Shown piece after piece: positions 21,338-22,556 of a stretch of 64,000 nucleotides of DNA. Position numbers and translations under genes: made by a program. The stretch covers positions 1-64,000 of the forward strand of contig JAGXRM010000054.1 in NCBI GenBank assembly GCA_018335855.1, written 5' to 3'. The stretch comes from Clostridiales bacterium. Its GTDB lineage: Bacteria; Bacillota; Dethiobacteria; Dethiobacterales; Dethiobacteraceae. Every line of letters begins with the position of its first letter. The first letter of the stretch is position 1. Below the pieces are notes generated by a model. The model was not told where the DNA came from, ran no database searches, and was given only the letters and a program-made list of their open reading frames with translations.

Positions 21338-21473
21338 CACCAACACCTCACAATTGAATAATTAATGATATACTTCTTTCATGAAAGTCAATTTTCCTTT
21401 TATTTCTAATAATTATTTCACCCCATCCTCCCCACGTACGTACTATATAAAAACATAGTATGGGAGGAGAACC

Positions 21474-22493
21474 ATGACCGATAACTGTAATTATAAAGAC
21501 ACAGAACCGGTAGTTTACCAGGTTGATGCTGCCGTTGCCCGCCCCAGTGCCCCGGAAAGTGTAGACGATAATATCATTGGGCTTGGCACAGTCAAAGGGG
21601 TTACTGCAGCGGCACTTTATCAGGATGTCCGAAAAAGTGGCCGCTCGACAGGAGTTACCCGGGGACATGTGACTGTAATCGGTACCACCGTAAATGTCGG
21701 TGTTGGAAGCGGCCGGATCATCCGGTTGTCAGATCAGATAGTAACGACCCGAATGGCTGATCCGGGAGACAGCGGGTCCCTCTTACTGGACGGTGCAAAT
21801 CATGCGATAGGCCTGCTCTTCGCCGGAAGCAGTTCCGTTACACTTTACAATCCTATACATCAAGTGTTAGCAGCACTCCGGGTCCGGCTTACACAGGACA
21901 GCAGAGAGTCAGATTCATCTCTCACATCTCAATATGACAGTCTCATTTCCCTTGCCAGAGAAAAAGCTGCTGACCTCTTCCATTTCCCCAGTGTTGTCGG
22001 TGTGGGAGTGGGTACAAAAATCGTCAATGAAGTGGATACAGGAAAACCTTGCCTGACAGTTCTGGTTAAACAGAAAAAGTCCCGCGAACTACTGAGCGAA
22101 GAAGAACTGATTCCGGGAAAATTGGATGAAGCCGCTACGGACGTTGTGGAATCGGGATACCTGAATACCGGCAGCGTTACTAAATGGTACGGCTCACGTT
22201 TAGACAGAAAGATTAAAATGAGGCCTGCCCGACCTGGACTCAGTATTGCACATTACCAGGTGTCTGCCGGTACATTTGGCGCTGTAGTCTATGATATAAA
22301 TAACGGTGAACCATTAATTTTGTCCAATAATCATGTCCTGGCCAATGCAACAAACGGTAAAGACGGCCTTGCTAAAGCCGGAGACGCTATTCTGCAGCCG
22401 GGAAAACTTGACGGGGGAAATCTTCCCGGAGACATGATCGGCGAACTGCTTCGATTCTACCCTCTTCATTTTATTAACAACAGCAATATTTAA
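21474..22493 (+). CDS. Trypsin-like serine protease with circularly permuted domain order
   Basis: This 339-aa protein is built from recognisable parts of one protease family in the wrong order. Residues 13-140 match the normal C-terminal half: the Asp strand VDAAVARP (Asp18) and the Ser motif GDSGS (Ser100). Residues 165-339 match the normal N-terminal half: the VVGVGVG leader domain, then LILSNNHVLAN (His287), QPGKLDGG and an ending at LLRFYPLHFINNSNI. The triad thus reads D-S-H instead of H-D-S, and the break falls exactly between the two halves. AGGAG precedes the ATG. No signal peptide is visible. Either a working permuted enzyme or the scar of a collapsed tandem duplication is possible. 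Confidence 0.75.
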   Translation: MTDNCNYKDTEPVVYQVDAAVARPSAPESVDDNIIGLGTVKGVTAAALYQDVRKSGRSTGVTRGHVTVIGTTVNVGVGSGRIIRLSDQIVTTRMADPGDSGSLLLDGANHAIGLLFAGSSSVTLYNPIHQVLAALRVRLTQDSRESDSSLTSQYDSLISLAREKAADLFHFPSVVGVGVGTKIVNEVDTGKPCLTVLVKQKKSRELLSEEELIPGKLDEAATDVVESGYLNTGSVTKWYGSRLDRKIKMRPARPGLSIAHYQVSAGTFGAVVYDINNGEPLILSNNHVLANATNGKDGLAKAGDAILQPGKLDGGNLPGDMIGELLRFYPLHFINNSNI

Positions 22494-22526: not shown

Positions 22527-22556
22527 AAGGAGCATATCAAAATTATATGCTCCTTT
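22527..22556 (+). terminator. Intrinsic terminator after the permuted protease gene
   Basis: AAGGAGCATAT and ATATGCTCCTT flank a short loop between two converging genes, so it may serve both directions. Confidence 0.7.

Follow-up and report, generated by a model that had tools for sequence, protein, structure and literature searches.

Few enzymes have been studied as much as the trypsin-fold proteases and, to our knowledge, the order of their two barrels is nearly always assumed to be fixed. A gene in the window, the whole 64,000-nucleotide stretch of DNA analysed here, raises the question of whether that order has been rewired. Its open reading frame at 21474-22493 (+) encodes 339 amino acids plus a stop and reads Asp - Ser - NAL1_N - His. 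The initial annotation had noticed this reversed arrangement, in which Asp18 and Ser100 precede a leader domain and His287 comes last; it is confirmed in the 339-residue frame, and canonical relatives run the opposite way. Judged from sequence comparison and modelling, the protein is most probably a genuine circular permutant, fixed in the genome, within the bacterial NAL1-like trypsin-fold (PA clan) serine proteases; it would have arisen by tandem duplication, would fold in cis and is predicted to be catalytic. The route by duplication, the folding in cis, the catalytic activity and the cellular role are what we infer.

Domain order and the site of the cut

The gene encoding this predicted protease (21474-22493, +) is preceded by a ribosome binding site, GGAGGAG, at 21463-21469 (+), 4 nt 5′ of the ATG and as good as first described. 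Residues 1-16 (21474-21521, +) form a new, poorly conserved N-terminal extension with pLDDT <50, in place of which one orthologue (L002) carries an extra domain. The Asp/Ser half follows (residues 17-139, 21522-21890, +); it would comprise the last part of the first barrel and the Ser barrel, and it corresponds to the C-terminal part of canonical proteins. Within it lie the presumed triad Asp, Asp18 (21525-21527, +), in the motif VDAAVARP, and the presumed nucleophile, Ser100 (21771-21773, +), in PGDSGS. A new linker (residues 140-154, 21891-21935, +), variable in length and sequence, then connects what is the C-terminus in canonical relatives with their N-terminal helix. This helix and the NAL1_N-type domain (residues 155-230, 21936-22163, +), which includes FPSVVGVGVG at 171-180, are N-terminal in canonical relatives. 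The His half of the first barrel (residues 231-333, 22164-22472, +) carries the presumed triad His, His287 (22332-22334, +), in SNNHVLAN (ILSNNHVLAN when extended), and the chain ends in a new C-terminal tail (residues 334-339, 22473-22490, +) at the canonical variable-loop site, its C-terminus reading LLRFYPLHFINNSNI. The gene had also been credited with its own terminator. The hairpin in question, which lies between two convergent genes (22527-22555, unstranded), is terminator-like for the minus strand, having a convincing U-tract for that opposite strand only, and the terminator of the window gene is weak or shared with the convergent gene.

Homologous NAL1_N and trypsin-like parts are both found in the window protein, the NAL1_N part weakly. 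In Pfam, the C-terminal part of Trypsin_2 (profile positions 75-144 of 144) is placed at residues 59-114, preceding NAL1_N at residues 175-218, both scores lying under the curated cut-off; NAL1_N exceeds that cut-off in a sibling protein, L010 (29.7 bits vs 27). The Asp/Ser half aligns by sequence (3e-6) and by fold with streptogrisin-type proteases of the streptogrisin / alpha-lytic protease group, which, unlike the window protein, have the canonical order and are without NAL1_N. The alignment to 1sgc_A begins one residue past Asp18 and one residue past Asp55 of that chain, its active-site Asp (chymotrypsin Asp102). Because the match starts just after both residues, Asp18 occupies the expected position of the triad Asp. 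The three presumed triad residues, all of which had been recognised as present from the outset, are also invariant (D18, S100, H287) in all 11 permuted sequences described below. Since it is ordered Asp - Ser - NAL1_N - His and departs from the linear order NAL1_N - His - Asp - Ser, the window protein is to be filed, on sequence grounds, as a permuted offshoot of the bacterial NAL1-like trypsin-fold proteases and not as a canonical member.

The relationship to canonical proteins becomes direct once the chain is rotated. In BLAST, the window protein gives two crossed matches to the canonical relative L063 (from Desulfosporosinus), residues 158-332 to 19-193 (146 bits) and residues 17-139 to 201-323 (94 bits), and the rotated window protein gives a single match of 225 bits and 42% identity over nearly the whole chain. 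Such a single match after rotation is far beyond chance, and two crossed family matches that become one end-to-end alignment are the pattern by which a circular permutant is recognised. When other relatives from its class and phylum are compared, the two parts likewise match separately and in the opposite order. Among the open reading frames classified from fetched loci, 116 records are canonical vs 24 permuted, the latter representing 11 distinct genes, some of which were fetched more than once.

The His half of canonical relatives is connected to their Asp half by a loop of 5-147 residues, and it is at the site of this variable loop that the permuted proteins start and end. Their old ends are bridged by a linker of about 15 variable residues; a canonical C-terminus normally stops a few residues past the last helix. 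The initial view that the cut falls between the His half and the Asp/Ser half stands, but the proposed natural join of last residues to first is not literal, since residues 1-16 precede VDAAVARP and canonical relatives have the variable loop at that place. In L002, a carboxypeptidase-regulatory-like domain is found before the Asp strand (4e-10; L002:1270-1494), and the N-terminal part of another orthologue, L011, weakly matches the same family, pointing to an exposed new N-terminus. The domain added in L002, and a probably related one in L011, would stand where an ordinary protease has the interior of its catalytic domain.

Distribution, inheritance and selection

A check advised in the initial annotation, the search for the same order in related genomes, returned 11 distinct full-length permuted genes from 8 genera, all of them Dethiobacteraceae. 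Within this family a match is found in 12 of the 20 species examined, which also make up the whole order as sampled; 11 of these matches are the full-length permuted genes and the remaining one, in G019, is truncated. The G019 remnant (L122:7104-7292) covers about the first 75 residues only of the permuted gene. The other 8 species have no permuted gene, and a canonical copy is found in none of the 20. The window protein shares 48-55% identity with its orthologues. Its source genome holds one copy, with neither a second copy nor split halves.

Among the genomes and viral contigs searched, the permuted order is confined to this family. Elsewhere in the class it occurs in 0 of the 28 matching genomes, the order being canonical wherever both parts are seen. 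In a draw of 399 genomes from the phylum, no other permuted gene appears among the matches listed; there, full-length matches (>500 bits) come only from Dethiobacteraceae, and the next best, a half match of 232 bits, lies far below what a permuted gene should score. Other phyla were covered through the best 80 loci of one search, in which every locus outside Dethiobacteraceae is canonical. Viral contigs yielded 76 canonical, 3 partial and 0 permuted genes, and a first scan of genome contigs using a single sequence as query gave no matches. The search of phage records returned partial matches only; in one of them (HE681887.1:10466-11023), an archaeal virus with an Aeropyrum host carries a 'putative serine protease' that matches the NAL1_N/His part.

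The permuted genes also share a locus, in which IPMDH is followed by TPR and/or CCA genes where present, the protease, further genes and YchF; IPMDH upstream and YchF downstream are common to the permuted orthologues. The neighbours are not shared with the canonical gene in other families of the class. Phylogenetically, the permuted proteins form one clade in the rotated alignment (99), in the Asp/Ser half (97) and in the His half (80). Given 11 genes from 8 genera at the same locus and in one clade, the permuted order is inherited and is not an artefact. The true circular permutation envisaged initially is supported by these same observations and by the invariance of the triad. Moreover, the permuted proteins are under purifying selection, since the triad and the surrounding motifs are invariant in 11 divergent sequences and close pairs of permuted genes give dN/dS values of 0.16-0.23. 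On the IPMDH tree, presence and absence of the permuted gene are interspersed, and G001, which belongs to the same genus as the window's source, lacks the gene; the pattern is most simply read as repeated loss. Because it is absent repeatedly, the gene is dispensable and not essential. In G001, a sister species (L241:8654-8855), the segment TPR-CCA-protease-orf22561 is missing between IPMDH and PadR; this absence looks like one clean deletion and includes a CCA tRNA nucleotidyltransferase-like gene.

These data bear on two alternative readings. A tandem duplication collapsed in this particular assembly, as the initial annotation had considered, is excluded by the orthologues, and assembly artefact of any such kind has a negligible chance of accounting for a gene that has the same order at the same locus in 11 genomes, at 48-55% identity to the window protein, 3 of the 11 also being present as public records (L031-L033). 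The gene could instead be a dead relic or pseudoprotease, the scar of a recombination event, as its absence from 8 of 20 species and its truncation in G019 would allow; against such a highly improbable relic stand the triad and nearby motifs kept invariant across divergent sequences, together with the low dN/dS values.

Predicted fold, origin and alternatives

AlphaFold2 returned a permutant model with pLDDT 80 and pTM 0.81, and a model of the canonical control, L063, with pLDDT 90 and pTM 0.88; the alignment behind the permutant model is shallow and consists mostly of unpaired halves. When the printed elements are compared, every strand and helix of the control except two has a match in the permutant in rotated order. 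The two unmatched elements, H104-107 and E118-121, fall in a low-confidence stretch of the permutant model (235-267), where the control has a first-barrel strand. Rice NAL1 is matched along the entire control model (TM by query 0.64-0.73). In Foldseek, the permutant model matches known proteases in one half only, as expected because this search is order-dependent.

These findings can be accommodated in a model in which a canonical gene, encoding NAL1_N, the His strand, the variable loop, the Asp strand and the Ser barrel, would have been duplicated in tandem in an ancestor of the Dethiobacteraceae. Loss of the outer pieces, namely the first NAL1_N/His part and the last Asp/Ser part, would have left the Asp/Ser part of copy 1, a short linker and the NAL1_N/His part of copy 2, with the variable loop that separates the His and Asp strands now supplying the new ends. 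This one chain is then predicted to fold in cis into a two-barrel protease with a NAL1_N domain, in which His287, Asp18 and Ser100 would meet and work as in an ordinary serine protease. It may act in the cytoplasm as a serine endopeptidase of the NAL1 type; this location is probable because no signal peptide was recognised by eye in the window protein.

The permuted gene is likely to have originated in an ancient tandem duplication whose outer halves were later lost, by analogy with a pair of canonical NAL1-like genes arranged head to tail in another genome (G211; L124:1246-3212). In that pair, the second gene begins about where the first ends and the loop lengths are very different; were the outer parts of a pair like this lost, the order seen in the permuted gene would result. 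Permutation by duplication is also the model described for natural circular permutants (PMC3320104). The duplication step rests on analogy because no remnant of the discarded halves is found in the window or beside the orthologues. A fused canonical dimer, suggested by an 865-aa open frame in G404, was set aside since the frame crosses stretches of N.

The missing remnant would suit another route, in which a canonical gene underwent fission into two neighbouring genes and then fusion in reverse order, or in which two different paralogues gave rise to a chimera. Such a route concerns the origin only and is compatible with the fold and function proposed above. It is also favoured by the half-trees, which place the permuted clade differently, the Asp/Ser half near short-loop forms and the His half without resolution. 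Support in these trees is too weak to establish a chimera, which was rejected on that account, no split gene occurs among the classified loci, and the tandem canonical pair does exist, so that a route of this kind seems unlikely. The other alternative concerns the active site. Subunits could swap domains within a head-to-tail or ring oligomer, so that the Asp/Ser half of each would pair with the His half of its neighbour and the site would be completed in trans. A swap of this kind would be permitted by the new ends and by the linker of about 15 residues; six chains are present in several rice NAL1 entries (8hau, 8hat, 8has), and part of the first barrel is of low confidence in the monomer model. 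Yet that model reaches pTM 0.81 with its elements in rotated correspondence, and the linker differs between species in both length and sequence, a freedom that a precise swapped interface would limit; we regard completion in trans as rather improbable. A duplicated and trimmed gene whose product folds in cis is the preferred reading, and the family history is probably that of an active trypsin-fold permutant, cut between His and Asp, that arose once, replaced the canonical enzyme family-wide and used its new N-terminus for domain addition.

Relation to known proteases and permutants

The closest known systems are rice NARROW LEAF 1 (NAL1; PDB 8hau, 8pme, 7y77 and others) and its bacterial NAL1_N (PF25608) homologues, with which the window protein shares a homologous domain and, by prediction, the trypsin fold; the canonical bacterial profile matches rice NAL1 at 1e-12. 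Compared with NAL1, the order of the window protein is rotated, and its chain starts and stops between the His strand and the Asp strand.

Circular permutation itself is a known kind of event. Natural cases include favin/concanavalin A, saposin/swaposin and DNA methyltransferases (PMC3320104), and permuted papain-like peptidases are known as well (PMC10318531). These permutants likewise have two exchanged halves, the same expected fold and a duplication model, but their folds are other than the trypsin fold. Among the open-access papers searched, none was found to describe a trypsin-fold protease with a natural permutation inside its catalytic domain. If natural selection has kept a permutant whose first barrel is opened between His and Asp, then the fold and its triad can withstand such rewiring in evolution. 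Permuted and canonical relatives, at ~42% identity, also provide a matched pair for tests of folding, activity and oligomer assembly. Finally, proteins of this kind are scored too low by order-dependent profile and fold searches, as seen in the Pfam matches below cut-off and in the one-half Foldseek match.
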